DNA from: Marasmius tenuissimus
Lineage: Eukaryota > Basidiomycota > Agaricomycetes > Agaricales > Marasmiaceae
Assembly (NCBI GenBank): GCA_029532415.1
Contig: JAQOTA010000007.1
Span: 186,001 to 250,000 of the forward strand
Direction: 5' to 3'
Length of the DNA stretch: 64,000 nucleotides
Numbering within the stretch: position 1 is the stretch's first letter; every line of letters begins with the position of its first letter. The notes beneath the pieces were generated by a model that was not told where the DNA came from, did no database searches, and saw only the letters and a list, made by a program, of their open reading frames with translations. A program made the translations under genes and the position numbers. Below are positions 18,621-51,348 of this stretch, piece after piece.

Positions 18621-18691
18621 AGATTGAGCCTACACTGCGAAATCGAGAATCAACGTGTCAAATCGTGAATGATAGCAACATATTTGTATAG

Positions 18692-27282: not shown

Positions 27283-27288
27283 GGCAAG

Positions 27289-27870: not shown

Positions 27871-27978
27871 TTCAACGGTTAAAATTAAAGATAATATAAT
27901 CAATGTGGGGTTTCTCTAGCTGGATAGCTTTCAATCCAGAATCTGAACGGTAGCTTGGAAGCCAGATGTTCAAAAAAC

Positions 27979-29527: not shown

Positions 29528-29854
29528 CACCTCAGGCATACCCCTTTACCCCCCTCATAGGCCTATCTCCCCGGTGAGATAATTAGGCCTATGAGGGGTC
29601 TTTTCTAGCAGTTGTGCCCCAAGGCGGGGATACCCGTGGTGTGTAGGGCAGGTATACCCCGCCTCTGCCAGACCTCGCTGATGGGTATCCCCGCTCAGAG
29701 GTCAGATCTGCCCCAGCAGCGGGTATTTCCCTCGTCCTCCGTGATGTGACGGGGTGGCAGGGGTCTCTTCCCTCGCGATTTTTCGCGGGTTGGGGGCTGG
29801 GCACTGCTGCTGGTGGGGCTCATCGCGGCTCACTTCTCTTCAGCACACGTACAC
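29528..29854 (+). repeat. left terminal inverted repeat of the KDZ element
   Basis: Nearly identical to the reverse complement of 51,022-51,348: one difference in the first ~300 bp that I could see, then a few more. It contains an internal hairpin at 29,551-29,598 and several GGGTAT-type motifs. Confidence 0.95.
29551..29598. repeat. hairpin inside left TIR
   Basis: Arms CCCCTCATAGGCCTA and TAGGCCTATGAGGGG flank a short centre that contains its own TATCTC/GAGATA pairing. The same structure occurs at 51,278-51,325 in the right TIR. It may be a transposase recognition or cleavage structure. Confidence 0.85.
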
Positions 29855-30077
29855 CTGTACCACAGGTGTGTGATTGTGCGCTCTCCCGCGTCTTGTCGCG
29901 GATCCGGGGCTGCTCCTTGGATCCTCACGGTTCGTGTGGGTCGTGGTTTCTGTATATAGTCTTACCTGTACGTAGGTTTGAAATTGATGAAGTTGTACGA
30001 GAGCTGTGGACAGATACCGGACGTGAGTGGCACCGAATCAAGAAAATGAGAAGCCACGGAGAAGCGTCCCGTCTTCG

Positions 30078-30400
30078 CGGGTATACCCCAACTATGAAAC
30101 CACACCGGGTATTTCCCGAATCGCCAACCCGACCGGGTATACCCCGACTCGCCAAACGAACGGGTATACCCCGGCTCTGTCAAATGAACGGGTATACCCC
30201 GACTCTGCTATAGGAGCGGGTATACCCCCGACTCTGCTAAACGTCCGGGTATGCCCCCATTCTCCAAACGTGGGTGGGTATCCCCGGATTCTCCAAGCCA
30301 GGCGGGTATACTCCCATGCTCTCAACTTAAGCGGGTATCCCCCGACTCGCTAGACTAAGCGGGGATACCCCGCTATCTCAGCGCGACCGGGTATCCCCTC
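30078..30400 (+). repeat. left subterminal array of GGGTATACCC-type palindromes
   Basis: About twelve units of 27-30 bp. Each starts with a variant of CGGGTATACCCC, itself a near-perfect palindrome, followed by a variable 16-18 bp spacer. The mirror-image array lies at 50,305-50,642. Arrays of short subterminal motifs in both ends of DNA transposons are usually transposase-binding sites. No cas-like genes or strict repeat identity, so it is not a CRISPR array. Confidence 0.9.
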
Positions 30401-31194
30401 ATCCTTACGCAAGCTCGATTATGCATACCTTGTAGGTCCAGTTGTGGGTCCATGTTCGCTATGTTGAGTTTAATTTTTCTACCTGAAAACTGAACTATTT
30501 TCATCAATTTCAGGACGACGACGCTGACTTTCAGCGTTTCCTTCTCGGGCTGCACAGCTATATTTAGCCTTGGGCACTCTGCCTCCCACCACCACTTTCC
30601 ATCCAGCACCGAATCGTGTACGCCCTTCCTCCAGTATCCCTAGTCTTCCGAGCTCACTTCTCTACTACCTTGGCCTCCAGAACACGTTTCGTCGACCCAA
30701 CAGGTGCGGATTCTACGGTTCTTGCGTTGCTTTCTCACTTACCCAACATCCAGAACTACGTGCGTTTTATCTCGTTATTTCGGGTCTTCTGTCCCATTCT
30801 TTCTCCAGGTCGGCCTTCAGGTAACGCTAAACCGCGAGATAGGTACGTCTCTCGAGGTCCTGCTTGGTGTTTGCCTCTCTACTCACCAGTTTTTCGGTTT
30901 TAGGCGCCCATCGCGATTTTCTATCGCGAACACGGTCATTTTCGTTCCCTACACTCATCGAGTAGAGAACTGACTTTTCCTTACTCCCCTCCCTTTTAGA
31001 ATCACCGGAATCCCTCGATAGCCCGCGGAATCGCATCAACCTTTACCCCTTCTCGTTTCCGTCGCGTTCTTACCCATCGTCAACCACTTGAATCGACACT
31101 CCAATCAGGTGAGTTTTTTCTCCACTAATTCGTTCCTTTCGTTTTCGTTTTCGTTTCTCTTATCTCCGCTCGAGGCGTCTCTCGCTCGCCCTCA
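30401..31194. other. upstream region of the GIY-YIG-type cargo gene
   Basis: Pyrimidine-rich sequence with several short overlapping frames (30,570-30,973), none with a domain. Probably promoter and 5' leader of the gene at 31,195. Confidence 0.35.
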
Positions 31195-31739
31195 ATGTCG
31201 AACCCCAATCCTCCCAACAATTTCCTCGTTCCATTGTGGACCCGGGCCCAACTCCAGGCGTTATGGCCCGCCGCCCGACTCGGAATCCTCTCCCCAGTCC
31301 TCACCCCCAATGACTTCATCTACCTTTTCGAAATCTGGGAAGGTCTTCAGCGGATTTTCAAGATCGGAAGGAGCAACAACCCTCCGCGGCGTTGCCAGTG
31401 TATTCGTCGCCGATGTGGACCAACACGGCAGCGAATCATCGCTGTAGTTCGCGCGAGTCGTTCACATCGAACCGGTACGTTTTTCATAGCTATTGAATAT
31501 CCGATTAACCCTCCTTCAGAGCCTTTGATGCATATAGACGTCGTCCACCGTCTCGGATGGACACAATATCGATCCTCATGCCGATGTAAGTCAATTCTCC
31601 TTCATTATTCGCTCAGTCTTTTATATTTGCTACCTTCACAGGCAACCAGGACCACCGAGAGAAGTTTCAACGGAACGGCACTCTCTTACAAGTTCTCTCC
31701 GAGTTCTTCAACTCGTTTGCCTATACCCGCAACAAATAG
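31195..31739 (+). CDS. GIY-YIG / T5orf172-type (DUF1766-like) protein, KDZ cargo
   Basis: Three exons, 31,195-31,474, 31,520-31,585 and 31,642-31,739, all in phase with GT/AG introns of 45 and 56 bp. The core motif FEIWEGLQRIFKIGRSNN, followed by a PPRRC patch, has the shape of the T5orf172/GIY-YIG fold (an aromatic-rich strand, then K-[IV]-G-[RT]-[ST], then an Arg helix). The later block MHIDVVHRLGW ... CRC ... HREKF matches the second half of that family: an acidic residue on a helix, a Cys pair and a terminal basic/aromatic motif. GIY-YIG nucleases cut DNA; T5orf172 proteins are DNA-binding relatives. Whether this one keeps catalytic residues is not certain by eye. Role inside the element is unknown; DNA end processing is one guess. 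Confidence 0.8.
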
Positions 31740-32545
31740 TCCTACAAAATTCTGAGTTGTTGTCTAGTAGTTCTCGTCCAAGCTAATAGTGTACTTACCT
31801 TCTTGTTGTATATTCTCACCGTCGACTTCTAAGTCGAAGTAGCATACTCGTAACTTTCTTGCTGTATTATTTCATCGCGCCTCGAGTTTCGCGTATTGTA
31901 CTTGTAGATTTTCTTGTTATATTCTCGATGGACTCCAAAGTCTGCGTACTGTATTTGCTTGTTGTATTCCCTTTGCAGAACCGTCGACAAAACGTACCAT
32001 ATTGTTTGCCATATCTTCTAATATACGTACCTACCTACCCTTACCGCATAGCGTAGCTGCCCATTGTATTTAACAAGGTTGATACTAATAGAAAGACTTG
32101 AGTTCGGAGCTGATACCGCGCAGTGTAAAATACCACTTACTGGAATTAGGCGCCTCGGACATAGCAGCCTCAGAGTCCGAGGCCTCGGATACTCTACCGG
32201 ACCTCGGTCCGAAGTTCGAGCCATGCTTGGACCGGCTCAGACCCTCGGGCCTCCTGTTTTGAATGCCAGCTAACAGTCCTAGGGCTGGGTTCCAAACTCA
32301 TAGACCTCAACGCCGATTGGGGCACCAGAATCTGGTGGGTGGGTATTGGCGTCTACTTATTGTAGGCGCTAAGCTAGATCTCGAGGCGCTTAATTCAACG
32401 CCGGAGAGGCCGTTGGACGCTTGTAGCTCTGTTAAAAATATGAATATGGACTAGTAAAAGATGAGAAATAGGTTCCTTACTTGTATTTGACTTGGAACGT
32501 GATTCAACAAAATAGTTCTTAGGCGAATGGACCGCCACTGTGAAA
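31740..32545. other. cargo spacer, no gene
   Basis: AT-rich 3' flank of the GIY-YIG gene, then GC-rich sequence with GAGGCCTCGG-like palindromic bits (about 32,150-32,260). No coding frame convinces me. Confidence 0.4.
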
Positions 32546-32642
32546 CGCAACTATCGGGAGTTGAACCCGAGTCTGCGTAGGAATTTTGGAGAGCCCTTGT
32601 ACGAATTTGGCTACGCCGTGCTGACCGCTGCACCATAGTTGC
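32546..32642 (-). tRNA. intron-containing tRNA-like gene inside KDZ element
   Basis: On the minus strand the acceptor stem is GCAACTA/TAGTTGC (seven pairs), the D stem GTGC/GCAC, the anticodon stem GCGTA/TACGC, and the T stem CTCGGG/CCCGA around TTCAACT (a good B box). The anticodon loop is expanded by about 25 bases, taken as an intron. The loop begins GCCAAA, so the base before the anticodon would be C rather than the usual U. CAA or CCA are possible anticodons, and neither is secure. Confidence 0.6.
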
Positions 32643-32748
32643 TTGATGATAGTTCACCAATACGCCGCCCATACAACGAATGAAGGAAACATGTTTTTAT
32701 TCTTCTTGAGTACCCAGAGTAGGTATCCATAACTTGACGTTCATCGCG

Positions 32749-33279
32749 ATGACCCATCTCGAGCTCGAATGTACTGGCAACTGCCTCAGCAATCTCGCAG
32801 CAGTTCTCGACCTTCATGACCCTGCAGGAGATGTTCCTCATGGCTCGCTCACATTACACACCCTCGACTCCGAAGTTCTCTTCGCCCTCGCAGTCAGAGC
32901 AACACCGAACGTCATTGAGGTGTGTCGATGCCCATTCAACGTTCCACACCGCGGTGATCTCCTGCACAGTGGTCATCGACTCACATTGCGACGATGGGAC
33001 ACTGAAAACGTGAGTTCCATTCCCTGATATGCCCCCGTCCTTTTGACTGATTCGCTGTCGTGCTTCTAGAGTAAATGCGGGTGTCCTGAAATTCTTTATT
33101 CTTGGGATGCGTCTCTGTCGAAATGTATTTGGGCAGGACTTCAGCTATGGATCGCACTCGAGGATGGGAATGATAAACATATAGAAGAAATGAGGGCTGC
33201 TGTTGAAGAGGGTGAACCGGTACGCAGTGAAGAGAGGCTGGGAGCTAGTGCGACAGCATTGGAGAATGGGACTGAGTGA
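32749..33279 (+). CDS. small two-exon uncharacterised cargo gene
   Basis: Exon 1 (32,749-33,009) and exon 2 (33,070-33,279) join in phase 0 across a 60-bp GTGAGT...CTAG intron, giving 157 codons. The middle is Cys-rich (EVCRCPFNV ... SKCGCPEIL) and the C-terminus acidic. I do not recognise the family. It could be a small zinc-binding protein or a remnant of a larger cargo gene. The start is the first ATG after the adjacent tRNA-like gene. Confidence 0.45.
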
Positions 33280-33554
33280 CTCGTATTCTCTTCAGCAATG
33301 TAGACGTAACATAAAGGCATGGTGTAGAAAATAGGACGTACTAGCCACTATACCATGATTGGCTTGACGTGGCGACGCACTGGGCTGGTTGGTCCCAGCA
33401 CATTCCCACTTACCGAGGAGATACAGAAATATCACACAAAGAGCACCCGATAGTAGCGTATGAAATCGTTTGGTTTATTTCGTACAAGTCCATAGAAAAT
33501 TCACGGCATTGTACCAACTACGTCGTGACAATTAGACATGAACTGCACCCACAT
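33280..33554. other. intergenic between cargo gene and transposase 3' end
   Basis: Convergent 3' flanks. Nothing recognised. Confidence 0.4.
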
Positions 33555-36500
33555 CTAGTCGGTCTCAGATTCCCTATCACTAAGATCCAGCATGGCGAGA
33601 TGCTCGTACAAACCAGAATCCACGACGTCTTCTACCTCGTCCATCTCTAGCTCATCCTCGTCATCCAATGCGTTCTGAATGTCGTTGAACTCCTCTACGA
33701 TGTCGGTCAACCTTAAACTGCTTGCGTATGCCAGCTCGCTTGCCGACGGACCCCATTCTCATACACCAACTGATGCCTCAACCTGGCGTAAGTCTTCAAT
33801 CCACCGTGCACATAGACTGGCAAGGTCGTTTCGACGGCCCTCCAGCATATAGCGTTCATCCTCGTTATCTTCGTATTGATTTTGTCAATACATGCTTGTT
33901 CAATCACGTTTTGCGCGACGTACCACTTTGATCAATGCTTAACAGTACCGTGTCCCACTCCTCCCCAAACCATATCTGCATCGCATCCCTTTCCTCCTGC
34001 AGCCTTTCTAATTCTTCCTCGCAACGGTCTCTTTGTAGCAGATACCGTATGCCAGTACGAACGTTTTCGTCCGATAGCCATAGCGGAGGCCGACCGTCTT
34101 CTGCTCGATCGGAGAGGCCTATATCTTGCCAAATGTCGTCGTCAATGTTGAGGCTGAAGAGTCCTTCCAGTACAATCTCCTTTGGAGCCACGGCGTTGTG
34201 AGGAGCTTGACCCTTGGCGATGTATCCTTGCATTTCAGTACATAGCTTGTTGTACCGACGTGCGATCTGTTGAATGCCAGGGTCCTTCTTCTTGACGGAA
34301 TCTTCAATTTGATGGTGAGCGCGTTGTTCTGTAGGGTGGTAGAGTGTTAGTTGAGCTACGCAGCGTGATCAGCAAGGCACGCTTACCTGCCTGAGTTTTT
34401 CGGAAGGAATGTTCAATGCGGTCTCTTTCAAACTTTCTCGAACGAAGCTTCTGCATCAGCCGCGTCTTGAGGGCGAGGGCGTTCATCCTCGCCCTCAGGT
34501 AGGGACTTTCCAGAAGGTGCCGTACCTCCTCCTTTTCCTTCACTCCCAGCAGCTTCTCCTTCTGACAAAGGGTTTGGTTCGCACGCTTGATATCCTCCCT
34601 GCACTTAGCCAGGCGTTCCATAGTGTCCAAGTGGTCGTAGGCATCGTTTTGTAGGTTGGCCAGAGATTGAGTGAGACGAGAGGAAGTTTGTTCCAATTCG
34701 TGCGCAGCTTGTCTAAGTCGAACCACTTCTTCAACGGCCTTTCTGCCTTTCTTCTTTGATTGAGCTGACATCATCGTAAGTAATCACAAGGAGACCGGAG
34801 ACCGGAGATCAACTCGTACCGGGGAGGGGTTTTGTCTGGTCCGCTACCTGATCCGTCCATTCTTTCCGCAATACGTTCTCCATGACCCCGCATGTCTTCA
34901 GCTGGTACTCTGCCTCCTGTAGCTTCACTCGCGCTTGGTGGTCCTTGCGAGCAATCCATTGTCCCAGTTGTTCCAGATTTTGCTTGTCTAAGTAATTGAT
35001 CTGGATATCCAGCGTGTAGACGCGATGATGGTACTAGATGGTAAAGATGATGAGTACCCAAGCTATCATGGCAATGCCGAGCTTACCCCTGCAACCCTGA
35101 GATAGGGTATAAGCTTGCTGATCGAATGCCAAAACCGTTCACATCCTTCTCCGTCGGAGAGGCCGAAACCCTGGGTCTTTCGGGGATGATAGATCAGCTG
35201 GCAAGGCCATCCATGACCAAACGCGTGAAAGATCGAGACAGCGAAGGAGATACGATGGAGATAATCCTCCAAAAAACCCCACTTCACACAACTTCGGTGT
35301 AATTGACAGCCGATGTCGTACAGTAGGCCAATCGTGAACGTTGGTGGTAGGTGCTCGAAGAGAAGGTCAAGCAGTACTAAGACAAAATGTTGGCGTTCGC
35401 CAGCGCTGTCCATGTTTACCAGCCACAAAACGCGGTCGTGACGGCACAGGAGCCCCATCAACGTCGTGCAGTCGAAGTACTTTGTGCTGGCTTTCTCCCT
35501 ACGCTCGTCTGCGGCCGTAAAACTCTCCTCACACCCATCTAAGACCGAAGTAGGAACCTTGAGCGGTCCTTCAAGTCCATCCGGCATGTCGGCTTCCTCA
35601 TCCTTGCTTGACTTCTTCTTCGTCTTACGAGGGCGCAAGCGCTCAACCTTCCTTTCCATCTCTTTGACGACGTGTTTGGGCACGAACACTGACTTGTGAA
35701 ACTCTTTCCGAGGGTCCCTGTGGTGCTGCTTGTTATGCTTTTGCGTGAAACAGGCGTCTACACAGACAATTGCGTCGAAGCTGAAAATGTAGATACATTA
35801 GCCCTTCTTCTGAGGGTAATAATGATTCTTACCCAGATGACGGACCTCGATCGCTATCCCCCCCAAAGCAGAGTGGGCACCTCGAACAAAGGTAATCGCT
35901 TGGCCGTTTTCGAGAGGATTCGGGCCTTTCGAAAACCACCCTTCGTCGTTTACGAGCACCTTCCTGTGTTTCATCCTCACTACTACCTGACTCGTCTCCA
36001 ACAATCCTGACCCCCGGCATCTCGTCCCGACTCGACCCACTTCCACCGCCCCCTGTCCAAAACCTTTCTTCCTCATCCCGCGTTTCCGATGGGGCCCGCT
36101 CTCTTTCTTGTAGTAGATTCTCCCGCTGATCAGCGATGAGATCGTCTAGGAATGCTTCGCACCGTTGCTGAAGAGCATTATACCACTGAAGGGCGTTTGC
36201 GAATCGCCTTCTGAGTGGATCCTGGCGGGAATAATGAGCCTGCGTAGTTGAAACCGAAATCGATTTCAAACACACCTCTCCTTGTAAACGATATCCCCTG
36301 GCTGCGATGAAGTCCTCCAGCGTGGACGACCAGGCAGTTTGATTGGGCGAAACGCGTAAAAAAAGTCGCGTTACCAGATCCAGCAGCTTCATGTCCACCG
36401 CGAGTGTGGGCTGCAGTGGAGCGCACGGGAAGAGGCCCCGCTGTAGTAGTTGAATGGCAGCCCTCTTGTCGGTACAGCGACATACAAATAGGACTATTTT

Positions 36501-37071
36501 GTCAATCCCTGAGTCATGTTTAAACGTGGGTATCAACGACGAGGTTTCGGGGAGACTTACTATCGAACCTCACAACAGCTACTTCGAGAGAAGCTGTGTT
36601 GCCGGTGCATGTGCATGGTGAGGGCGTGCTCTTGATTTCTGGATTTATTCGAAGGTTCTTAGTCTGCCGCAAGAGGGCCATGTATGGTCCAAGCAATTGC
36701 GGTAGTATTTCGCCATTCCAGCGAGCAGCTTGGTTTGTTCTTCGTCGCATATGCAACGTCGTTATTGCAGGCTCTTCGTCCATCAGGTGAGTATAGATCG
36801 CTGGGGTTGACCGAGACTCAGAGGCTGAGTGACCTTCCGATTCGGTGCCAGGGCCTTGAGTTTCGTTGCCAGAGTCATTGGATGGCTCACGCTGGCTGGG
36901 AATGTAACTTTGGGTGAAGGATTGCCCATTGCCAAGGTAAAGTAACGCTGGAGCTTTTTTTCTTTTGCGGCGATGGTGTGGAGGTGTGATTGGAACGGCG
37001 GTGAAATCGTAACCTTTCGGAAGTTGATTGAGAATCCGTTGCCTATTTCTCCTTGATTTCTGTTTTGGCAT
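33555..37071 (-). CDS. KDZ transposase (CxC1-associated type), one in-frame TGA near the end
   Basis: Seven exons on the minus strand: 37,071-36,561; 36,493-35,833; 35,780-35,087; 35,033-34,820; 34,764-34,387; 34,328-33,924; 33,868-33,555. All junctions are in phase, about 1,058 codons. The N-terminal third has the Cys cluster found with these transposases (CSRCPLCFGG). The catalytic domain has the family motifs in order: IVCVDACFTQKHN, SVLDGCEESFTAADE, CRHDRVLWLVNMDSAG, GLLYDIGCQLHRSC, FHAFGHGWPCQLIYHPR and GFGLSDGEGCERFWHS. A coiled-coil region and a DDDIWQDIGL block follow. It should cut and join the element ends. A single TGA (33,759-33,761, codon 991) precedes EWGPSASELAY, a normal C-terminal block, so about 67 residues are lost unless the stop is read through. 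Confidence 0.95.
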
Positions 37072-37475
37072 TGTGCGTCGAGTTCTAAAAAAGTATCCAA
37101 CGCCTCAGTATCTAAAATAAGAGAGACAGAAATGCACAACGCACCAGGAGCCCCGTGTTCTCCCTGTCTCTGACGTTGTGTAATAAAGACTGGTTAAATT
37201 TTGCTTACACAAGACACCTATGCTTGGCGTATATGATTTCGCAGAGAGAGAGAGGAAAGAAACCGCGGTACGGACGCTGACTGAACTCGTACTGTGGTTC
37301 GTAAGGTTCTACAGGTCTGGAGTTAACATATCAGCTTTGGATAATAAAATTCGCAGTGTCAACCTGGCTAGTAACGAGGAAAAAGAAGGACCCCTTAAAC
37401 GGGGTGTCCTCCACTATCTCAGAGGAGATCTCTCCCGTCTGTGATGGTAATGGACACCCCGCATAAGGGATCCTT
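37072..37475. other. transposase upstream region
   Basis: Probable promoter of the minus-strand transposase. No gene is seen. Short GGGGTGTCC-type inverted motifs occur near 37,397-37,460. Confidence 0.4.
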
Positions 37476-37549
37476 GACCTGTAGCGAGATTCGAACTCGC
37501 GTCATCCAACATCGAAATGCTGACCGCTCTACCGCTGAGCTATACAGGT
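37476..37549 (-). tRNA. tRNA-like gene, possible Arg (TCG), irregular anticodon arm
   Basis: On the minus strand the acceptor stem ACCTGTA/TACAGGT, D stem GCTC/GAGC and T stem GCGAG/CTCGC around TTCGAAT are perfect, and A and B boxes are good. The anticodon arm is irregular: CAGCA/TGTTG gives a six-base loop (TTTCGA), TCAGC/GTTGG an eight-base one. The best reading of the anticodon is TCG. This could be a tRNA with a one-base lesion or a tRNA-derived promoter. It lies about 0.4 kb upstream of the transposase start. Confidence 0.6.
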
Positions 37550-37793
37550 GTTATGATAATATGGGGTTGCGCATGTCTTTATCCCAACAGAATGATCCTG
37601 ACCACTCGGCGAGAGCTAGCATGACCCTTGAGACCCATCATGAACATATCCCCAATGTGTCAACAATGTGCGGCCAGTACTTGGTCCCTTATGTGCCGGC
37701 GAGCGGGCAGATCAAGAGTACCGATTAAAAGCAGAGTATCCATTGGGAGATCGGTGTATGTACAGGACTGAAACGCATCGCCAACCAGATGCC

Positions 37794-38683
37794 CTATACT
37801 TGCAACACCTCGCCATACCTCTGAACCAACGCTCCCTGCTGATATTTGAGCTCCCCATGGTTGTGCTTCGTTTCTAACGGATAGTAGAGACGGCCAAGTT
37901 CAATCATGTCGTCAATGAGCTCCTCTTCAGAAAGCGCCAGCGAGAAGTCGCTGACACATTGCTGAAGATAGGCGGTGAGGCCAAGCAACCGAGTGGCCCG
38001 TGTCGACACAGAGCTAACGCCAGTATTGCACCATAGACAGTCCCGGATGGACTGAAACTCCCTCTCTAAGGAGCCCAGCACGACTTTGGGGTGATCTAAC
38101 GGAGAGGAGGGAGGGCGGTAAGCGGACTTCCATTCCACCAACTGCAGGTAGATGTCTTCGAAATAGTCCAGCGGGCGGTCGTTGAAATGGCGTCGTAAGG
38201 AGGACTCGAGAGTAGAAAGACGCTTCTCGCAGTATCTATAGTTGATATGTGAGCTAGGTACAAGACGAGAATGTCTGCAGACGTACACTTCGTTGTGTAT
38301 ACACCTTTCATCCAACTCCCACATTGCGCTTTCGCTCCATGCGCTGTGTTCCTTGGCCAATGCTATTCGGCGATTCCTACAAGGAGGGCAGATCAGCAAG
38401 CCAAGCAGGCTATTTATTACCGGCGGCAGGACTCACTGGGCTGCTTTAACTTCGTCCCAGTACTTTCGCGCGTCTTGCTTGTATGCTCGCTGTGAGACAC
38501 GTCGCTGCAAAAAAACCCTCCAAACTTTTTTCCTGTCAGAGAATCAAACGTTTAGATCAAGCGGTAGAAGTCTAATCTCAACGCGTACTTGAAAGCGAAA
38601 GCTTGTGGGTCTCGAGCTTTTAGCTCGAAGAGGGAAAGGCGAGCTTGCCGTCTGGCATTGCCCTTGCGAAATGTGATGGTCAT
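37794..38683 (-). CDS. uncharacterised cargo gene (KDZ element), helical protein
   Basis: Minus strand, ATG at 38,683. Exons run 38,683-38,589, 38,532-38,437 and 38,376 onward, with a further 48-bp intron near 38,240-38,290; all junctions are in phase. The N-terminus is strongly basic (FRKGNARRQARLSLF), continues into KKKVWRVFLQRRVSQ, and the rest is helical with acidic C-terminal segments. No enzymatic motif is visible. It lies between the transposase and the next minus-strand gene, with a 110-bp gap to the latter, so the three may be expressed in parallel. Function unknown. Confidence 0.65.
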
Positions 38684-38792
38684 GATAAGGATCGGACGAG
38701 GGTGCACTTGGCAAATTAAGGATGATGGATAGCAAAATCTTATTTCCAAAACCAGATCTCAGGCCGGCTACTCTGGTACCCAAACGACTAGA

Positions 38793-39746
38793 CTACAAAT
38801 GCAATGGGTACGTGCGATGGTATATCTGTTTGAGGTCCTTCTCCTTGACATTCTGCCCCAGTCTATTCAAAGCGTCATCCATTGCATTCAAGACATTGAC
38901 CATTTCGTCTAACGTATGGGTGAAGATGGAGAACTCCTTGATCCTGTTATCCCAACGCTCTCGCGGACGGTTTGAAGTTCTCGCGAGGTAACAACAGTCA
39001 TTGCCCATCTCCTGAACATCGCAGGCCTTCGCGTACACACGCTGCAATGCAGAGAATGCAGGTGACTTGGCCGCCTCTCTTTGAGATCGTGGTAGCAACC
39101 GAGTGGATTGCATCCATCGCACACAGTGTTGAGCAAGGCCTTCGAGGAATGCATGAGGACAGTGTCCAATTTCGCGCATGAATGTGTTCTTCATTGCTTC
39201 CAGATTATCCTCGTAACCACTAATAGCAGATGCGTAAGTTCCTCATCCGAAGAGGCAGCAGCATAAGTAAGACGCACCAGATTGTCATCTCCACGTCATC
39301 GGGAGATTCTGAGCTGGCTCTCGCCACTGGAACACTGGGTGAGGGTTCTCTGGCTTCTATCAGTGCTCTCGTCTCATTTTCGCTATAATCCTCGGCTTCC
39401 TGTGCATGAGAAGACCCTTGCCGTTTACCCTTGGAGATGTTTTCGCGGCGTAGCTTGCGTGCATGAATTCTGTGAAGGTCAGCCGGTCAGCTCAAAGTTA
39501 AGTGTTTCGTGATACGTGTAGGAACGGTACTCCTGCTTTTCCATCGCTTTCAAATCCCGTGCCCGCTTCACCTTTTTGGAATGGAGAATTTCCTCACGTT
39601 TCCTACTTTCAGCGTTAGTTAGACATCGAGCAGACTGCAGAAATCTTTTCGGAAGAATGGACGTACCTGTCATAGTGGCGTTTGTCTTTAGACTTCTTCG
39701 CCTCTCGACGTTCTTCGTCCGTGTGATAGAGTTTGGGTCGTGCCAT
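38793..39746 (-). CDS. uncharacterised cargo gene with basic MARPKLY N-terminus
   Basis: Minus strand, ATG at 39,746 (MARPKLYHTDEERREAKK). Exons join in phase through GTACGT...GAAAG, GTATCA...ACAG and GTGCGT...TTAG introns to a long last exon ending at 38,793, about 240 codons. The first 70 residues are Lys/Arg/Glu-rich, resembling the basic region of a DNA-binding helix. The second half carries several Cys and a heptad-like segment (LDEMVNVLNAMDDALNRL). Similar short basic starts occur on agaricomycete hypothetical proteins, but I cannot name a family. It may bind DNA; that is inference. Confidence 0.65.
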
Positions 39747-39827
39747 TTGAAACAATCGGCGGTAGTGAATGGTGAGAGCAGAGTCGTGAACCATCAAGAT
39801 CATGTGAGCCAGCCTCTATTCGTCGAG

Positions 39828-40700
39828 TTTCCCGACTTTTACTCTCGACACACTCGACACACCTCATTGAGGGTATTGAGTTACGAATGGAGGTCGGTTG
39901 GCCCCACAGAATGGCGCCTGCTAATCTGTAGGAGTGGGAGACGAAGTGGTGTATCGAGCAGATGATCAAAAGTAGTAGATACCTAAACTGAGACCTGCCA
40001 GGCTTTCCGTCGAAGTAAATTTTCCCGACTTTTACTCTAGACACTTCTGCACATCATCGACAAGCGTAGAACTCAAAGACAAAGATGAGTACACCTCGAA
40101 GAACTGCGCCTGCTAATTTCGAGAGTGGGAGAGTGAGTCGTGTATCGCGAGAACGACTGAAGATAGCGAATACCTGTACTGAGAGTTACACGGCTTTCGG
40201 TCAAGGTTGGTTTTCCCGACTTTTACTTTCCACATTTTCCGCACGCCACTGACAAGCTCGAGACCCATGGACAAGGATGAGGACGCCTTAAAGAACTACG
40301 CCTGCTAATTTCTTGGAGAGGGAGAGTGAGCAGCGTATAGAGACAACGACTGGAGATAGTCAATACCTATACCGAGAGTTACACGGCTTTCGACCAAGGT
40401 CGGTCTTCCCGACTTTTACTCTCCACATTTCTTGCACACTACTGACAAGCCCAAGACTCAGGGATAATGGGTAAGGATAACTCAATATCAGAGAACTACG
40501 CCTGTTAATTTTCTAGAACGAGCAACTGAGCCGTGTATCGAAAGGGCGATCGAAAGTATCGAGTACCTATATATACTGAAAGTTGCAAGGCTTTCGATGG
40601 AGGTCAGTTTTCCCGACCGTTACTCCTTACATCCTCCACTATACTGCCAGCTCACAAGCGCAAAGACCGTTACATAGGCAGCATCTCGTCGACAAACGAT
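39828..40700. repeat. ~192-bp tandem repeat array, 4-5 units
   Basis: The phrase TTTCCCGACTTTTACTC recurs at 39,828, 40,021, 40,212, about 40,404 and 40,609, each followed by similar sequence (GCCTGCTAATTTC, GTGTATCG, AATACCT, AGTTACACGGCTTTCG). Spacing is 191-205 bp. Units have diverged by roughly 15-25% by eye. The array sits upstream of the minus-strand cargo gene starting at 39,746 and near the element's midpoint. Confidence 0.85.
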
Positions 40701-41355: not shown

Positions 41356-41642
41356 CAGGGATTGTTCTCCCACGGCTTCCCTCTTGTCATCTCTCCATCA
41401 AGATCTGACTGGCCATCATCCAAGTCTATTGTAGTAGTTGTATGAGTTTCATGATAAATAAATTCTCTTAATCAGTTCTCGAGTAAGATAACATTGTAAG
41501 TCAATTTATTGAAACAATTCAAGTAGAGAAAAGAAAGGGAGAAAGACGTGAAAGGGGGTCATGCTGCTACGCAGCGTCCGTCTCAATAAAAATATCCCCA
41601 GTAAAACATGAGGCTGACTCTCCTACAGACACAACGTGCAAC

Positions 41643-44600
41643 ATGGCAACGAGCATTGGGGCGTCCACGTCAAGACAAGCTATGGAGACAGAGCACACCA
41701 GGCGGAGAAGAGTAGTTCGAAACAGATGGATTGACGACGAAGCGGGTATAGATGGCGATGAAGAAGACTTCGATGACGATGAAGAGCAGGGTATGAACGA
41801 TGAGAAAGATGGAGGAGAGGGCGACAGAATAGCGAGAAGAGACAGATCGTCTTTGCCAAGGATAGAAACGCGTCGTTTAGGTACGTTCTGACGTTTTAGC
41901 ATTCGCACTCTTTCTGATATCTCTTATTCAGGCTCTAGGGGCGGAGCACCTCAGATTTTTGACGGATTGATCGCACGCGTTGAAGGTCCCCGGCCCCAAA
42001 ATAGTAACAATGCAGGGAACCAGAATGAAACGGTTGGGGAAAACTCAGACAATAGTCCAGATGAGGAAGCTGGGCATTTGCGACATGAGCCTTCATTCGA
42101 TCCGGAAAGTCCTCTAGAAAATGCCATGTTCAAGTTATTCGCGGAGGCAGACACGGCCCTGTATCGGGTCAAGTGCGAGGTATGTTATCCCCACTTATTG
42201 GGCAGATCTTTCATATCTAAACGGTGCGACAGCCGGGCTGTGAACTTCCTGCAATCATGTATCTCATACAACGTGCCGTTGCGGAAGACACACCAAAATC
42301 AGACCCTAATTCTGGAAATCTAGAGAGCTCGAAGTGTGAGGGAAAAGTACTGCTGAGCTCCTTGATTCGTTCGGCGTTCATGGGCAAGAAAACCGGTCAC
42401 ATCTACGTTGAGGTTACAAGCTGGAATGTTAGAGATCCGGTTCTACGGGAAATCTTCCACAGCACCCCTGGTCTACTGTACCCTTCCCGATATCCTGGTG
42501 GCTACCCTGTTCGGTTCCATCCGGGTGTCAAAGACTCCCTGCCTGCAGCGGAATTTGTGGAGCGCAATGAATGGGCTCAAACTCTCCATATGACAGGTAG
42601 GGGGGTCCTACCAGGCGACTTTGTCCAGATAGGGCGCCACGCCAAGTATCGGGGTGATGTTGGCCTCGTAGTAGACGTAGATCGGGACGATCTGATGTCC
42701 GTATCCCGCGCACGCCTTCTGGTTCCCCCGAGAATTCCTTACCATTGGCGTCTCAAAGTGGACCAATCACATTTCAACGACCAAGCACTTGAGTACTCGA
42801 GTGAGGACCGGTTAAATCCCAATCACGAGGACTTCTACCCACGACCATTCCACTACAAAGAATGGCTCGCCGCAGGATGGAAGTGGAAGGCCGATTTAGT
42901 CCCTCATTGCCGAACACACAGATGCAAGACGCCGAAGGACCCCGAAGTCCCGAATGTGGAAGGACACTGCAGACCGTGCCAGGACTGGGAAATGTGTCCC
43001 GAGGCTTACCTCGTGTTCCAGAAACGCGAGTTTCAGGACATGTTGGAATCTATATGGGTCAAGAACTCACGCCTCTCTAAGGCGGACAGTATTGCTTTCC
43101 ACGCCGGAGTCTGTTTCCACGTCAGCCAGTTTCAGAATCAACAGCTCTACGATTCCCTTTCAGATCTCCCACCACCCAGAGGATGGGATTTCACCATCGG
43201 CGATCGCGTATTCATCGTTAAACCTCATGTCACACCAGAACCGCAGCCAAAAAAGTTTCTGACAATGACGATTTCCTTCCTCAAGCACTACCCCGATGAA
43301 AGTCACGGGTGTGAAGGATCCATTGTGTCGGTTTCGGGCTCGATGTGCAAAGTCAGGTTGGATGACCTTCCGGGGTTAGTACACCAAGCGACAAATTCGC
43401 CCGAGGTACCAGCAGTGGTCAGGGATGAAACGTTGGCGTTCGAATTCCAGCCGCTCAGGTCGCAGACATCAGACCCTAAAGAAGAAGAGGGAATGGTGGT
43501 CAGCGTGTTGCAACACCACATTCGGCGGTCTCTTAGACCAGGAGATGAAGTGGAAGTCATCGATGGAATTGAAAAAGGTGCCAATGGATGGATATTCGAT
43601 GTAACAGAAGATTGGAACGCCGTGGTCATGGTTAACGACCCTTTGGAGCCTGACCGGCCGATGTCACAACTGGAACCCCATGTGAGTAGCACGATTCCAC
43701 TTATTTCGAAAGTGTTGCTCAGTAGAATTGTAAAGATGATCACAACCACGGTGAACTTCTTGCGCCCGTACAGACCTTGTGGCTCTACGGTGAACCAGGC
43801 CCCACGGCAACTCACGAGGACCTTTGGAGTGGCTGCAGCGCCAGATGGGGTACTGGCCAACGTGGGACTGTGTCCTCAGACGCCGAAACCGGTTCAGCAT
43901 AGGCAGACTGAGCGAAATCCTTGGATAGGGACGCGGGTGAGGATAATCAAACACAAGAGCGGGTCGAAGGACTCCGGAGTTGTGAGATCGGTTCATGTGG
44001 CGGGTGAAGCCCCGATTGGTAGGCCCAACAAGACCAACAATGTCAGCGGTCTGATCATCAATGTTGAATCGGACACTCGCCGACAGCGCACAGGCGATAT
44101 CGCCGTTGATTATAACAACGTACGAGATCTGGAGTAAGTTGTTCCTTCGATTAGTATCCAAATGAGAGAATGCTAAATTCCAGCAGCTCGGGCCGATTCC
44201 TCAACCAAGTTAGGCCATTGGCTGAAGATTCCTTCTGGAAGCAGCAGTTTTGACCTTTCTACTTTGAGCGATATAGCGATAAGGAAGAAAGGGAGTTGAA
44301 GGATAGGGAGGAAAACAAGCGATTGCAAGAGATGGAGAGGGAGCAACGAATGCGAGAAGAAGCAGAACGGCGCTTGGTAGCCCCAAGCAATGGTGGGACC
44401 CCACCGCCCGGCGAAGATGTTGATGCTCCGGATATTGGCTCGGCTTGGGACCCGGAGAGCACAGTCAAGCTCCCAGTTGATTGGTTAATCTCCCCCGGGG
44501 CGCTTCAAGGCCAGGGACCGATATGTTCAGCTCGAATACAATGGGGAAGACAGGCCTCATAAGATTGTCTACTACCCGCCCCGCGTGCAGAGACGAGTAT

Positions 44601-44950
44601 CTGCCTGTCCCATGGAGTCGGCTGAGCTTGACAAGTCTTCCGATCAGCCAAAACTCCGAACAGAGGCTCGCATGATGATCGTGATAGAAGGGGACCACCT
44701 TGGCAAACTAGTATATCGGGTTGGACAGTGATATGTCTCTGAGGAGCAGAGCAAGGACCACGCGCGCCTGATCGTGCATGTGGTGGTCAACATAGATGTA
44801 ATAGCTAGCACGTGCAAAATTTCTGAGGAGGAGTTGCTTCTGCATGAGTCTAGCCTTGCTATTGTGAAAGATGACCAGACACTATGCTCGCATGCACAAC
44901 AACAATTAGATAAAATTAGACAGGAGAACAAGAACAAGTTGTATTTGTAG
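41643..44950 (+). pseudogene. Spt5-like NGN-KOW protein, KDZ cargo, C-terminal part broken
   Basis: Exons 41,643-41,880, 41,932-42,179, 42,233-43,681 and 43,736 onward join in phase. An acidic N-terminus (DDEEQ-type runs) precedes an NGN-like domain: YRVKCE, PGCELPAIMYLIQRAV, then SAFMGKKTGHIYVEV. KOW-type modules follow: VLPGDFVQIGR ... YRGDVGLVVDVD ... LLVPPRIP, FTIGDRVFIV, and LRPGDEVEVIDGIEKGANG leading to NFLRPY. In Spt4-Spt5 these parts bind RNA polymerase II and aid elongation. After the GA|C splice at 44,139/44,184 the frame is cut by TGA at 44,251-44,253, a +1 shift near 44,491-44,500 and TGA at 44,729-44,731. Coding-like sequence continues through each lesion to 44,950. The N-terminal NGN-KOW product may still be made. 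Confidence 0.85.
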
Positions 44951-45105
44951 AATTTCTTGTATCAGTAGCAGCCTGCAGCATTATTGTATCAATAACACGC
45001 GTTTCCACGCGTTTGTTTGTTCGAATAAAAAGTGTTGTTTTGTTTTATTGATACATCGTGTACCACCTCGTCCACTCTCTCATTGCACTATCCTCAAGCC
45101 TCAAG

Positions 45106-48100
45106 ATGGCGAAATCAAAGGTCTCAACCCGAAAACCACGCGTCGCACCTACGCCTGGCCCGTCAAAGGTCAAAACATCCACAAAAAAAACTGGAGAGGT
45201 ATGATTAACTCATAGGCCGCAAAGCTACCACTGACGTTGAGTCCAGATAGCCTCGGTTCCAGCAACCCAGGTCAGCGAGGTTACAGAGGTATTTAGGTCT
45301 CTCGTCGTCTTCTCTGAGAGATGTGGTCTCATTCCAAGCGTAGAGCAAGGGCACTGCTCCTTCGGTTGAACCTGTAGCAAGAGGCCGTTACTCGACGCGC
45401 TCCCGGGTCCCCAAGAAAAACCCTAAGTGAGTAGATTTTTGTTTCGTTACGAATTTCATTCGGCTGCTAATCGTTTCAATAGACCCGAAGCCATCGTTTT
45501 AGCAACCTCGAAGAAAGGAGGGGCGAGGTTTGCCTACGTGGCCAAGCTGGTGCCCAGTTCAGAAGACGATGCAACGCACCCCGTTCCTCAACATTCGGAA
45601 TCCCACGAAGAGGCACTCGATCGATCTACGGATGAGGAAGAACAGGTCCACATCCAATTGTCGCAGGAAGTCCTCCACCCCGACTCTCGGTCGTCCCAGG
45701 AGAATCTTGTTGATATAGATCAGCCGCTAGATGACGGCAGCGACAACAACAGCCTTGGAGCTGCTCAATGCGAGCGTGTCGCAGAAGATGACGAGGGTTT
45801 TGATGACGAGGAGAATCGGGAGGACGACGGGGGTCGGGAGGACGAGGGGGATCGAGAGGACGAGGGGGATCGCGACGATGAGGATGAATACGACAGTGTT
45901 CAGGATGGGACTCCCAAGCGTAGGCAGAACGCCGACCCTTCTGATGATGAGTACGGCGATGCAAATCAGGTAAGAAGTGCATTACTGTAGCCTCGGTTTC
46001 GTACCTGATGTGAGCTTTCAACCTAGGTGCCCGTGGACAGCGATTCAACGGGCTCGTCCTTTGGAAAGACGTTGGCAAAGAAGAAGGCCAACTTGCGAAA
46101 GAAGGGACTACCTTTGAGTTCTGAGGAAGACACGCACGATGATGGGGACAAGCAAGCCGTTCCCAGTCCAATCCGTCCACCCAAACGCCGAAAGGCGAAG
46201 GGCAGTCGACAGGACTTCCAGAAATATATCCAACCAACAGGCCCGGCACAACGTCAACATCGTGGTTCACCGCCACCGCCAGCATCCTCTCCAGCTCCCT
46301 CGTCGCCCTCACCTGAGCATCGTGAACGGTCTGTCGTACCCGCTGCCTCTGCAACTACACCCAATCCAAGTCAAGGCGCATCTACAGGGCAGGAGAGGTA
46401 CAAGCCAGGGCCGATGGCCCAAGGGGCTAAGGACGCAATGGATGCATTGTGGGTTGAGGTGCGGGAGAAGATCGATGTCATCTCCAACGCCCATAACAAG
46501 TCTCCGGAGGCCCTCTGGCAGTACTGGGGGAGAAAAGATATCAAGGAACGTGGACCGAACACCTGGAATGTCTTCCAGGCTTCTTGCGGTTGGGTTGAAG
46601 GCGAGGAGCAGACAGCGAAGCCAGATAATAGTACGTTCGCATAGTAATCTTTCCCTGCGGTAAAAATATTCATACAGCCATCTAGTGACAGTGGGGGAAT
46701 GGGCCGACTTCATCAAGGATCAGTACAACCAGCGCAAAGCAGCAGCCGCAGAGTGACTTGGGGTGCCCGTCGACAAACTCACTTCTGCACAATTGCGTGA
46801 GGAGTTTGCGGCAGAGCTGGAATGGAATGAGCGGCAAAAGGGGGCGTTTAATGACGCGTTACTGCAGAACGGAGCGATGGAAGCCCATATCCAGTCGCTC
46901 GTTGAGCCCATTGTCGCGACCGTAAGTTTGATTCTCAGCTATCGTTCCATTCAACCATGCTGACCACTCACCAGTCCCAGAGGATTCGTGACCAATACGG
47001 AGTTCACGTATTCGGCTATGCTATCCAGACAAGACGTGATGCTAATAACATGAGTGTGTCGTGCGCCTGGGGACCCAAAGGGGAATACGAACAAGTCCAG
47101 AAGGCTTTCGGCAGGAATATACGGGAGCCTATAGGGGAATTCGAAGCCATGTTCAAGTGAGGGCTTGTCACTTCCACTCATCATCAGTTCTTCATTCTCA
47201 TGTTCCTTGTATAGGATAATCGAAATGGAGAATGCAGGCCACTCTCTAGCGATAGGTAGACAGCACGTACAACTTCAAGCTCGGCAGAATGGCAAGGACG
47301 GCAATAGGGCAATGGTCAAGATCTTCTACCAGGAGGATTGTAGTGAGTTCATTGGCTTTGCGTGATCAATAAGTACCTTATGCTTAATCTTACAGGGCAA
47401 TTCTCTTTCGATAAGGACGTGCCCCTGGACAGCTTCCTCAGATTGGCTTGGAAGTATCGCATTTGTATCGTCGATTGGCCAGCGAGTGTGCCTTTCCCGG
47501 AGACCGGGAAGAGTGTGTTCAAGATGAGCGCTGAACATGCTGCCAAAGCCGTCGAGCCGCGCGAGAGGTACATCGAGGCTATAGTCGATGGGCGCACCGA
47601 AGAAGACTTTGTGGTGAATCCCAAGCATATGCGTTTGATTCGCTGGAGCGATGGTAAGCTCTCAAACCACCTTAAGATCAACTTCAGCCGCTGATATGGA
47701 TCATCAGAGCAAATGAAGCTCGACATTGACGAGGCAGATAAGGTTACCATTGTCATCGACGATAACGGCGTAACCAAGCACACTGCGGGAGAATCCAAAA
47801 TATATGGGCAAGGGGAGTTTTACGATGCCGACGCAACCCCAAAGAAGAAGAGGGGTGGTAGAGGTAGGAAGCGCACCGCTACTGCTGCGGAAAAGGAAAA
47901 AGAGAAACAGGAGGTTCATCAGGCAGCTTTGGATCTCAAGGAGGGTAATCAGTTGGAGAAGCAGTGGATGGCAGTCAAACCACGCCTCGAGGCAGACATG
48001 GCGAGGATGGACATGGAGGATGGACAACGTCGACGCTATTATCAGGGGCATTCAGACGATGACGATGACGACAATTACGACAACGAGCCCAGGTACAACT

Positions 48101-49079
48101 ACGAGCAGATATTTCCCTCCCGGGGTAAGTCGTTATCCGCGACCTCCTAGTCAGACACTAAATGGCATTGCTCAGGTTCTCAACAACTCAGGCATGCAGC
48201 CCCTGACGACCAACACGACCACGACGACAAACATTCCCCCGCTCCACAGCCCGTGAAACGAGTCCCGTCGTCTCGACCTCGTTCTACCTCCTTTGACGTC
48301 GACCATACCAGTAAGTAGATGTCATCATCTGCAATACGTACAATGATGAACTCTGCCCTTAGCTCCCCGACGCCCTGTGGCTAAAGCCTCGTCATCCCGA
48401 CTACGTCAAGCAGACATTGAGGTACACCGTGATCGTGAGTCTGTGTTTCGTGTTATTCCGTCATTCAGGTTTGGGACTGTATTTTAGGGTCCACAGATTA
48501 CAGTCGCCCAGAATCGTCTTCTGTACGGCGTTCAGTAGAGGACTACTCGTCATCGTCGTACAGTCGGAAGCGTGTGCACAATGAAGAGCAGTATGAGGAG
48601 GAGTATCGTTCTCGCTGTACATTGAGCCATGCATCGCAATCTCAAGGTGAGTCTTATTACACAAAGAGCATGACTACACCTGACAATACACAGTGCGTAA
48701 AGCAGATCCGCAGGGAAACAAGCGTGCTCGAGGGGATCCTGCTGCCGACAAGTCCGATTCACGACGTGCAAGTCGTACCTCCAATCTGCCGCCGTCCCGT
48801 CGAATGGGTGATGGGGCCGAGCTGGAACCTCAGATCTCTCGCTCGGACCGCCCTGCGAAACGCCATCGGCACGCATACTCAAGATCTGTATCTCCGGCAC
48901 AGGATCGCGACCGTGGGGCGACTCAATCCTCCATCAGATATGCCCAGGATAAGGTTAAGGGTACCATAAAGGGCAAAGAAAGGGAACCAGTGCACTTCGA
49001 CCCAGAGTACCGTCGTTCTGGTCATTCTGATAGACGACCAACCCTGCCTGGCGTGCGGTCTTCGGCGAAGCCTCGGTAA
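45106..49079 (+). CDS. large multi-exon acidic/SR-like cargo protein, one in-frame TGA
   Basis: At least 14 exons, plus strand, roughly 1,000 codons, with GT/AG introns in phase throughout. The N-terminal third is basic then acidic, with tandem EDEGDRED-type repeats near 45,830-45,890. The middle (46,690-47,690) is a folded region, for example DALWVEVREKIDV, EWADFIKDQY and RQFSFDKDVPLDSFLRLAW. A lysine-rich KKKRGGRGRKR segment and a Ser/Arg-rich tail follow. I recognise no family. A single TGA at 46,754-46,756 follows KAAAAE and precedes LGVPVDKLTSAQ; CGA (Arg) fits there. All other exons look intact, so the lesion is probably recent. It follows the Spt5-like gene in the same orientation. Confidence 0.7.
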
Positions 49080-49281
49080 TTTGCGTACTTGCACTTGTAT
49101 TTGTTTCTCGTTTTCAATGTCAACTTTTTATCTCTGCAATCAGTGGCCTAAGTGAAAGTCTCGGTATCCACGCATGAGTTTCGAGCAATAGAGTCTCGAT
49201 TTGCGTGATCTCTACGGTAGTGACGTACAAGAGTAACGGAGAACCACATATACTGTGAGAGACAGACTGCCTACGTATTGA

Positions 49282-49703
49282 CTATCTGCGCCGATTTGGA
49301 TACTTCGTATGAGGAAAATGGTGGTAAATCTTCGTTCTCTGGGTGTTGTTGTCCTCAAGTTCCACGAGAAAAGTAGACAGACGAACTCGTAGGCTGTCGA
49401 AAGAGAAACAATGAATGAATTATTCTCTCGCAAGCTCAAGGGATTGTCCGAGCGTACTCACCTTACAAGCTCTGCCTCCAAACGCGCTTTCTCCCTAAGA
49501 TGTGTCTCTTTGTCCTCGAGGTTACCCTCGGGTCCGCCTTCCTCCTTTTCCGCAATCTGTCTGAGCATCTCTTCCTCGCAAAACAGCAGGACTTCGTTGG
49601 CCCAAATCTCGAATTTTGCTGTGTCGATGTTGGCAGCAATGTCATTGCGCTTCCTGCATCCTGGAAGGGTGTATTCCAGCAAGGGATACACAGGGAGAGA
49701 CAT
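49282..49703 (-). CDS. small coiled-coil cargo protein
   Basis: Two exons, 49,703-49,462 and 49,393-49,282, join at AG|C across a GTGAGT...ACAG intron, 117 codons. After MSLPVYPLLEYTLPGC comes a long amphipathic Glu/Leu/Arg stretch (EEEMLRQIAEKEEG ... REKARLEAELVSL). The region is probably a coiled coil. A CTTAG acceptor directly before the ATG, with a branch-like CTAAC, suggests another 5' exon (possibly ending ...LEPIKAR). Function unknown. It is the last cargo gene before the right subterminal array and points inward. Confidence 0.55.
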
Positions 49704-50304
49704 CTAAGAGAGAAACGGTTAGTAGGAGTACATCTGGCTGGGATATTCAACCCACATCGTGCTTTGATGGGCTCAAGTGCAGGTGGGAGTGCAGGTGTGA
49801 GTCGGCGGTTTTGATTTTTTTTTTGTTTTATACTGTGAGCATTGGTATAATATTCACTGCTGATGCACAATCTATCATTGGTCGCATGGCCCAGTGGTAT
49901 AGTAATGACAGCGTTGGCTTAAGCGCCGATGCCATCAGCGCTAAATCTACGTGAGGTCAGTTGATCGACTCTCCACCGTGCCTCGCATATCCCAAACGGA
50001 TGTGAATAATTTTATTATTGGTTTGTGCTATCGCGCCGTTCCTTCAGCTACCTCAATGTCTCTAGCAACGAGCAAGATATGACCTTGTAGCCTTTTTTGT
50101 TTGTACGCTAAACAAAGATCCTGCGCACAAAAAATGACCAAAGATGTCTGAGACATTACGATAGCTGTAAGTAATACACCCAGAAACAAAGTGCCCAAGG
50201 CTAGCAATAGTTGTGCAGGCAGAAAACGTAGACGGTCAACTCACCATAGCGAAGGCAGACCCACAACTGGACCTACAACGAACATTTGATCGAGCTTGCA
50301 TAAG
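49704..50304. other. right-hand cargo spacer
   Basis: Possible 5' exon of the coiled-coil gene at about 49,750-49,800, then a tRNA-like fragment near 49,885-49,970 that I did not accept. No gene otherwise. Confidence 0.35.
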
Positions 50305-50642
50305 ATGAGGGAATGCCCGGCCGATCTGAGATAGCGGGGTATACCCGTTTGGTTTCGAGACTCAGGGGGATACCCGCTTATGTTGGGATGCACGGGGTAT
50401 ACCCAATTGTTTGGGATTCCGGGGATACCCGCTTAAGTGGGAAGCACGGGGGTATACCTGGGTATACCCGTTTGTTTTGGAGATCCAGGGGATACCCGCC
50501 TGTACATTTGGAGAACGCGGGGCATACTCAGTCAGTTTCGACCATCGGGGTATACCCGGTCGACTGTCAAACTCAGGGTATACCCGCTCACGTTGGAACC
50601 ACAGGGGTATACCCGGTGCGGTTGGCAGAGTCGGGTATACCC
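50305..50642 (-). repeat. right subterminal array of GGGTATACCC-type palindromes
   Basis: About eleven to twelve units of 27-36 bp with GGGTATACCC-type cores, mirror image of the left array. Even the inner border motif is shared (GATGAGGG next to a GGGTAT-type core at both ends). Confidence 0.9.
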
Positions 50643-51021
50643 ACAAGTTCGGATAAGGCGTTCTTGTTCCTCCCTTGCTCTAAACTGCCGAGGTGAGATG
50701 CACTATACGACTGACCGAAGGCGAATGTAACCACCCTTACACTCAAATAGTGACTACGACGGACAGACGGGACACTCTTTCATTATTTCTCTCAATTCCT
50801 CAAATCAGTGCCGCTCATGTCCAGTAGCCGTTCACAATCCTCGTATAACTTCCTAAGTCTCATGCCTACGTTACAAGTAATATTATCTATAACCTTGGGG
50901 ACCATGACTCACGCAACTGCTGAAGTGACGCAAACCGTGAGGATCCCGAGCAGCAGCCCCAGCCCCAGATCCGCAACAACACGTGGGAGAACGTACATAC
51001 ACACCCTTTGGGTACCACAAT
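50643..51021. other. between right array and right TIR
   Basis: No gene. Short patches still match the corresponding left-end sequence (for example GGATCCTCACGGTT), so the inverted homology of the two ends extends patchily beyond the TIR. Confidence 0.5.
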
Positions 51022-51348
51022 CTGTACGTGCGCTAAAGAGAAGCGAGCCGCGATGAGCCCCACCAGCAGCAGTGCCCAGCCCCCAACCCGCGAAAAATCG
51101 CGAGGGAAGAGACCCCTGCCACCCCGTCACATCACAGAGGACGAGGGAAATACCCGCTGCTGGGGCAGATCTGACCTCTGAGCGGGGATACCCATCAGCG
51201 AGGTCTGGCAGAGGCGGGGTATACCTGCCCTACACACCACGGGTATCCCCGCCTTGGGGCACAACTGCTAGAAAAGACCCCTCATAGGCCTAATTATCTC
51301 ACCGGGGAGATAGGCCTATGAGGGGGGTAAAGGGGTATGCCTGAGGTG
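51022..51348 (-). repeat. right terminal inverted repeat of the KDZ element
   Basis: Inverted partner of 29,528-29,854, ending CCTGAGGTG next to the target duplication GCTCAAG. It carries the second copy of the internal hairpin (51,278-51,325). Confidence 0.95.

Follow-up and report, generated by a model that had tools for sequence, protein, structure and literature searches.

In Cryptococcus, the elements KDZ1, KDZ2 and KDZ3 encode a transposase with KDZ and CxC1 domains, are bounded by terminal inverted repeats (TIRs) of 139-241 bp and have been demonstrated to be mobile (PMC12810828), and giant KDZ elements of ~30 kb, with accessory genes, nested insertions and a transposase that is often pseudogenised, have been reported from the algae Ectocarpus and Chlamydomonas (PMC12477816). 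KDZ elements are abundant in mushrooms, as reported for Marasmius oreades (PMC8290104), and the best-studied extra gene there is TET/JBP, known from mushroom KDZ transposons (PMC12730594). Here, we describe a 64,000-nt window of the Marasmius tenuissimus genome (GCA_029532415.1, contig JAQOTA010000007.1, positions 186,001-250,000 of the forward strand; coordinates are relative to this window unless preceded by a contig number), in which positions 29528-51348 very probably represent a complete cut-and-paste KDZ-superfamily DNA transposon that moves as a single 21.8-kb unit and carries, among other passengers, an SPT5-like gene and an orphan gene that we call geneC.

The limits of the element could be placed to the base. 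Inverted-repeat comparison gave a left TIR at 29528..29853 (+; beginning CACCTCAGGCATAC) and a right TIR at 51023..51348 (-), each 326 nt in length and 99% complementary to the other (5 differences over 327 positions), in agreement with the ~327 bp of a preliminary description of this locus. The 7-bp target-site duplication GCTCAAG that the same description had claimed can be read directly on both sides, at 29521..29527 and 51349..51355. A smaller inverted repeat lies within the left TIR, at its positions 24-71, and is visible as opposite-strand matches in the TIR search. Between the TIRs, on the minus strand at 33904..37071, lies a KDZ transposase gene of ~965-1021 amino acids (aa), annotated as PM082_022781; its domain, also part of the earlier claim, was recovered by Pfam KDZ (PF18758) with an E-value of 3.4e-59 and 200.6 bits against a cut-off of 26.6. 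Upstream of the core, a CxC cysteine cluster scored 30.5 bits with CxC2 (cut-off 27) and 27.5 bits with CxC1 (cut-off 26.9). Our gene models are predictions of a simple gene finder of our own, without transcript backing; that of the transposase agrees with the public annotation at 98% identity over 99% of its length.

Searches of the host assembly (71 Mb in 70 contigs, designated here by C-numbers) returned 33 matches to the TIR and revealed a second copy of the element, E7, at C7:5484376-5542578. Compared with the left TIR of the window element, those of E7 show 99% and 100% identity, and its target-site duplication is GTACCAT, unlike the GCTCAAG of the window. Where they align, the two copies are ~98% identical (66 substitutions in one aligned part and 155 in the other), and their shared genes are co-linear. 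As the same unit is present at two insertions with different duplications, the unit moves; the proposal that the whole 21.8 kb moved as one is thereby upheld, the shared passenger genes being in the same order in both copies, and the TIRs are not confined to one locus, which had been named as the outcome that would speak against it. Further copies of ~22 kb had been predicted: one was found, with a different duplication and the same cargo order, but it spans 58.2 kb owing to nested inserts and lacks the transposase core and geneA, the gene upstream of the transposase.

The stretch missing from E7 corresponds to 35084..40598 of the window (5.5 kb), and includes exons 1-3 of the transposase in our model, with the KDZ core, and geneA. 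Since E7 is without the core, the window copy alone, of the two, has a complete transposase, and it is probably the autonomous element of this genome, its SPT5-like gene decaying. The extra length of E7 is an insert of 41,788 bp after element position 617. It comprises a copia-like long terminal repeat (LTR) retrotransposon, named from its protein, and two elements that interrupt its LTR: K2, a KDZ element of 18.4 kb (C7:5523424-5541843) with 265-bp TIRs and flanking GACAGAG, and an element of 14.2 kb that contains a Plavaka core and has CATCA..TGATG ends. A giant 58-kb element was ruled out, because the additional length is 41.8 kb of nested elements. KDZ and geneA matches closely similar to those of K2 are also present on C3 and C10. 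An 18.9-kb element on C69, with the ends of the family and GTTACTC on both sides, was considered and rejected as another family with cargo: only its ends are shared with the window element, and its inner models resemble LTR retrotransposon polyproteins. The TIRs differ between the window copy and E7 at 0 and 2 positions, compared with ~1.4% in the interior, and their likeness may be kept by selection or conversion.

Like other fungal KDZ transposons, the window element combines a KDZ transposase domain with a CxC cysteine cluster, but it gave no TET/JBP match and has the SPT5-like gene and geneC instead. The 7-bp duplication and CA..TG ends recall Kyakuja, as found in two Laccaria families (PMC12730594), but those families are reported as lacking TIRs, whereas those of the window element are 326 bp; we have therefore filed the element as KDZ and not as Kyakuja. 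The 8-bp duplication of Zisupton and Dileera was not found, the duplication being 7 bp in both full copies. Cryptococcus KDZ1-3 share with it the TIRs and the KDZ plus CxC1 transposase, but are reported at ~9-11 kb, the duplication being 8 bp in KDZ1 and 4-8 bp in KDZ2 and KDZ3, in contrast to 21.8 kb, 7 bp and extra genes here (PMC12810828). The giant algal elements are alike in extending over tens of kilobases with additional genes and nested insertions, but they belong to a different lineage. The TET/JBP-bearing Kyakuja and Zisupton elements of mushrooms offer a parallel as KDZ elements with a gene potentially countering host silencing, although the window gene is SPT5-like and not a dioxygenase. 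The hallmark of Starships is a tyrosine-recombinase captain gene. No captain domain was detected in the seven predicted proteins and open reading frames (ORFs) scanned, nor in geneA, and the element has a KDZ transposase. The 'cargo-carrying giant transposon' of the preliminary description calls for some refinement: the element is large and does carry passengers, but geneA is regular KDZ equipment and KDZ elements of ~30 kb with accessory genes have already been reported in algae (PMC12477816). The element type, a large cargo-bearing KDZ transposon, is already known; its passenger set and the combination of long TIRs with 7-bp duplications make this one a variant of its own.

An unoccupied target was found within the window itself. 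A paralogous repeat at ~61.5-63.8 kb, without the element, has the sequence GCTCAGG at 62020..62026, identical to GCTCAAG at 6/7 bases, as established by direct reading and a joined-flank search. The 1200-nt query of joined flanks gave four listed matches in the genome, both flanks and two paralog pieces, one of which (query positions 554-1199 of 1200, 83% identity) runs uninterrupted across the junction. Because the junction-spanning match is the paralogous repeat and no other match is listed, the empty site is a paralog and not an allele. The uninterrupted paralog had been correctly anticipated, but the site lies two bases to the left of the 62,022-62,028 first given, and one base differs. 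The repeat family around the insertion site occurs at 3838-4135, 29273-29482, 51436-54161 and 61470-63772, with some copies inverted and the target inside one of them; its right-hand copies contained no gene model above threshold. An LTR retrotransposon, judged gypsy-type from its protein, adjoins the element at 18394-28193; its two 215-bp repeats, 9,585 bp apart, are identical, and it has therefore inserted very recently.

Residue conservation points to the likely active site of the transposase. In an alignment of 52 homologues, chosen among 120 listed of 328, the residues D386, D533, E589 and E506 (P0003 numbering) are invariant, and D386-D533-E589 form a candidate catalytic triad. In the structure model (mean predicted local distance difference test score, pLDDT, 78.3), D386 lies in a strand, D533 just after a strand and E589 where a helix begins, an order that RNase H-type DDE enzymes would be expected to show.

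Part of the presumed cargo is standard KDZ equipment. The gene that we call geneA (37794..39803, minus strand; 8 exons in our model) lies upstream of the transposase on the same strand and encodes a protein with a basic N-terminus, MARPKLYHT..., of 514 aa from that methionine. Its 36 genome matches collapsed into 19 loci, window included, and all 19 lie less than 7 kb from a KDZ core, 16 of them within 5 kb; distances were measured against 51 of 165 KDZ matches, and omission of the others could only lengthen them. It follows that this KDZ group is regularly accompanied by geneA. Outside the window, 14 of 18 loci have geneA on the strand opposite to that of the nearest KDZ core; the remaining four resemble the window in having both on one strand. 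The geneA family had no Pfam match above cut-off and none in the PDB. Tandem repeats of 193 bp (39932..40467) separate geneA from the divergently oriented SPT5-like gene.

The subterminal zones of the element are marked by the palindrome GGGTATACCC. A palindrome count found 12 copies in the whole window (0.02 expected by chance), and 12/12 fall into two clusters: five copies at 30079..30227, 0.55-0.70 kb from the left element end, and seven at 50337..50642, 0.71-1.01 kb from the right. The same arrangement recurs in eight short elements of 2.4-3.5 kb, whose ends are 67-74% identical to the window TIRs over the longest matches (eight pairs were analysed; one pair on C49 and a single end on C19 were left out). 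Each short element has 7-13 copies of the palindrome, clustered ~0.54-0.7 kb from each end, with none in the flanks retrieved, and all eight are non-coding, with a longest stop-to-stop frame of 102-128 aa. In the K2 KDZ family, no GGGTATACCC palindromes were found. From these shared sequences, the arrangement looks like a recognition system common to the window element and non-autonomous partners, and cross-mobilisation of the short elements by the window transposase is likely.

The passenger at 41682..44950 (+; end approximate) is a multi-KOW gene whose C-terminal quarter is broken in this copy. The genome search with its protein gave matches at the two element copies only, and the protein database contained two, P0001 (AAF712_014103, from another M. 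tenuissimus assembly) and P0002 (PM082_006301, from the host M. tenuissimus); this search, also used for geneC, requires shared exact words, and distant relatives may escape it. KOW was recognized in the window model (26.6 bits, cut-off 22.3) and in P0002 (25.5), whereas P0001 alone, at 20.2, was below cut-off. Cargo residues 146-306 align to the NGN region of the host's own SPT5, encoded at C24:207091, in a weak match of 27% identity. Three more SPT5-like multi-KOW genes, picked via weak KOW matches, are present in the genome (C44:110500-114500, C3:4314000-4317500 and C11:1065000-1068000), and the best pieces of their proteins match the cargo at 33.9-44.7 bits. A profile of the five members (P0001, P0002 and the C44, C3 and C11 proteins) matched PDB SPT5 chains with a best E-value of 1.1e-15, and the SPT5-specific KOW5 and KOW2 models each matched 4/5 members at E<=1 (best E-values 1.2e-9 and 0.0025). 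Pairwise hhalign on single sequences had no useful outcome. On these profile matches, the passenger is assigned at family level as a divergent SPT5-like protein. The C44 gene has a KDZ match at a distance of ~9 kb; among the matches listed, none to KDZ or Plavaka is near the C3 and C11 genes. In the other M. tenuissimus assembly, a 71,771-bp contig carries both a transposase (AAF712_014098, 74% identical) and, five gene numbers away, the 1,042-aa SPT5-like protein AAF712_014103 (69%), and we take the two genes to belong to one element. Our searches of the open-licence literature, judged by titles and abstract openings, brought up no account of an SPT5-like gene within a transposon.

The remaining genes are geneC and two small ORFs. 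geneC (45106..49079, +; 1,051 aa and 15 exons in our model, partly covered by the annotated PM082_022787 of 593 aa) is an orphan: apart from the two element copies, the genome search gave one weak match (E 6e-4), and the single database match to residues 370-720 is its own entry. A small GIY-YIG/T5orf172-like gene (31195..31739, +; 162 aa, two exons in our model) matched Pfam T5orf172 with an E-value of 0.008, below cut-off; in E7 it is 93% identical and has a stop, and in the genome it occurs in the two element copies and at one locus on C30. Around that locus (C30:85300-88300), pieces 65-78% identical to the element surrounding this ORF mark a fragment of an older related element. A short ORF of 117 aa (49282..49703, -) is kept in E7.

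The differences between the two copies are strongly biased towards CpG. Among the transitions, 163/198 lie in CpG context, and changed sites amount to 8.3% of CpG compared with 0.45-0.70% of other cytosine contexts, a bias that suggests deamination of methylated CpG and hence DNA methylation of the element. A genome search for TET/JBP (PF12851), which many mushroom KDZ elements carry, gave no match above cut-off and one weak match on C3, although the PE type described in PMC12730594 may escape such a search; at that cut-off, TET/JBP cargo was ruled out.

Our data are compatible with a scheme in which the transposase, with D386, D533 and E589 as its catalytic residues, would bind the TIRs and, ~0.55-1.0 kb in from each end, the GGGTATACCC clusters, perhaps assisted by the geneA partner protein, would excise the element and reinsert it with a 7-bp stagger, and would also mobilise the short elements, while the passenger genes would travel along with the element. 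What the SPT5-like protein contributed is more speculative. One possibility, which we hold only tentatively, is that it acted on RNA polymerase II and kept the long CpG-methylated genes of the element transcribed. Bacterial plasmids carry NusG paralogs, and these and RfaH resemble the present case in that a mobile element has its own specialised NusG/Spt5-family factor (PMC7593976); the analogy is functional only, the window element being eukaryotic, much larger and known here from its sequence. By this analogy, and as a still more conjectural step, the transposon's own SPT5 paralog might bind RNA polymerase II and drive transcription through methylated, silenced element DNA, as a eukaryotic counterpart of those bacterial paralogs and an alternative to TET/JBP.

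Two other accounts of the element as a whole have to be considered. A segmental duplication or an assembly artefact, rather than transposition, would fit with both copies coming from one assembly and with the repeats that flank the site, but we consider this highly improbable, as the flanks of the copies differ at the ends, each with its own 7-bp duplication, and the paralog without the element is continuous across the junction. Alternatively, a separate gene-bearing element could have inserted into an older KDZ transposon, in which case KDZ identity would be limited to the outer TIR unit. Nested insertions are common, and only one of the copies has the 5.5-kb stretch at 35084-40598. At the junctions inspected, however, this stretch is not bordered by a target duplication, and it extends from within the transposase gene to the tandem-repeat zone, so that E7 seems to have lost it by deletion. 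Of the further inverted pairs listed, those within the element (I5 and I6) sit just inside the TIRs; I2 and I3 belong to the repeat family of the insertion site, far from the element. Such a composite origin is therefore improbable, if slightly less so than a duplication or artefact. Several observations nevertheless weigh against transposition of a single KDZ unit with a functional SPT5-like passenger. Only two full copies were found, one without the transposase core; the empty site is paralogous, at 83% identity and with one mismatch in seven bases; an exact 7-bp duplication flanks 5/8 short elements, the other three having 6/7 bases or an 8-bp repeat; and mobility is read from sequence, no transposition event having been observed. 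The transposase model had no PDB match at an E-value of 0.001 or better; a structural second look, mainly over the helical part 679-883, had no RNase H-fold transposase among the rows shown and has no bearing either way. On the side of the passenger, Spt5-NGN reached only E 0.25, below cut-off, albeit in the expected place (residues 149-176), and the best PDB SPT5 match was E 0.58 with P0001 alone and 0.014 with two sequences, the strong match depending on a profile to which three further family members contribute. The cargo scored 28.9 bits against host SPT5, while 2/500 shuffles reached at least 28.5, the higher one 31.2; a structure model of the SPT5-like protein, built from two sequences only, had a pLDDT of 29.5 and was not used. 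Finally, methylation is inferred from the CpG bias between the two element copies.

The most serious rival concerns the passengers and not the element: the SPT5-like gene, geneC and the GIY-YIG ORF may be trapped genes of the host or of other transposons, of no benefit to the element and now decaying. The SPT5-like gene is indeed broken in both copies of this genome, in the window by the loss of 50 bp near 44495, as compared with E7, and by stops in its last quarter, and in E7 by a stop that falls within the NGN-like part or directly behind it. Codon changes between the copies give no sign of strong purifying selection (nonsynonymous to synonymous 16:12 in the SPT5-like gene, 30:14 in geneC and 8:1 in the GIY-YIG ORF, counts uninformative as a substitution-rate ratio, Ka/Ks), and the K2 KDZ family has no match to the passenger genes. 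The diverged relative in the other assembly argues in the opposite direction, as it keeps a 1,042-aa SPT5-like protein near its transposase; with the frame open there, the pairing has outlasted 25-30% protein divergence. Taking these points together, we give incidental cargo a little less than an even chance.

Overall, the exact bounds of the KDZ element, its second copy and the small relatives with the same cis sites make both transposition and the binding sites directly testable. If the SPT5-like gene does aid escape from silencing, it would mean that eukaryotic transposons can bypass methylation by way of the polymerase, with the mark itself not erased.

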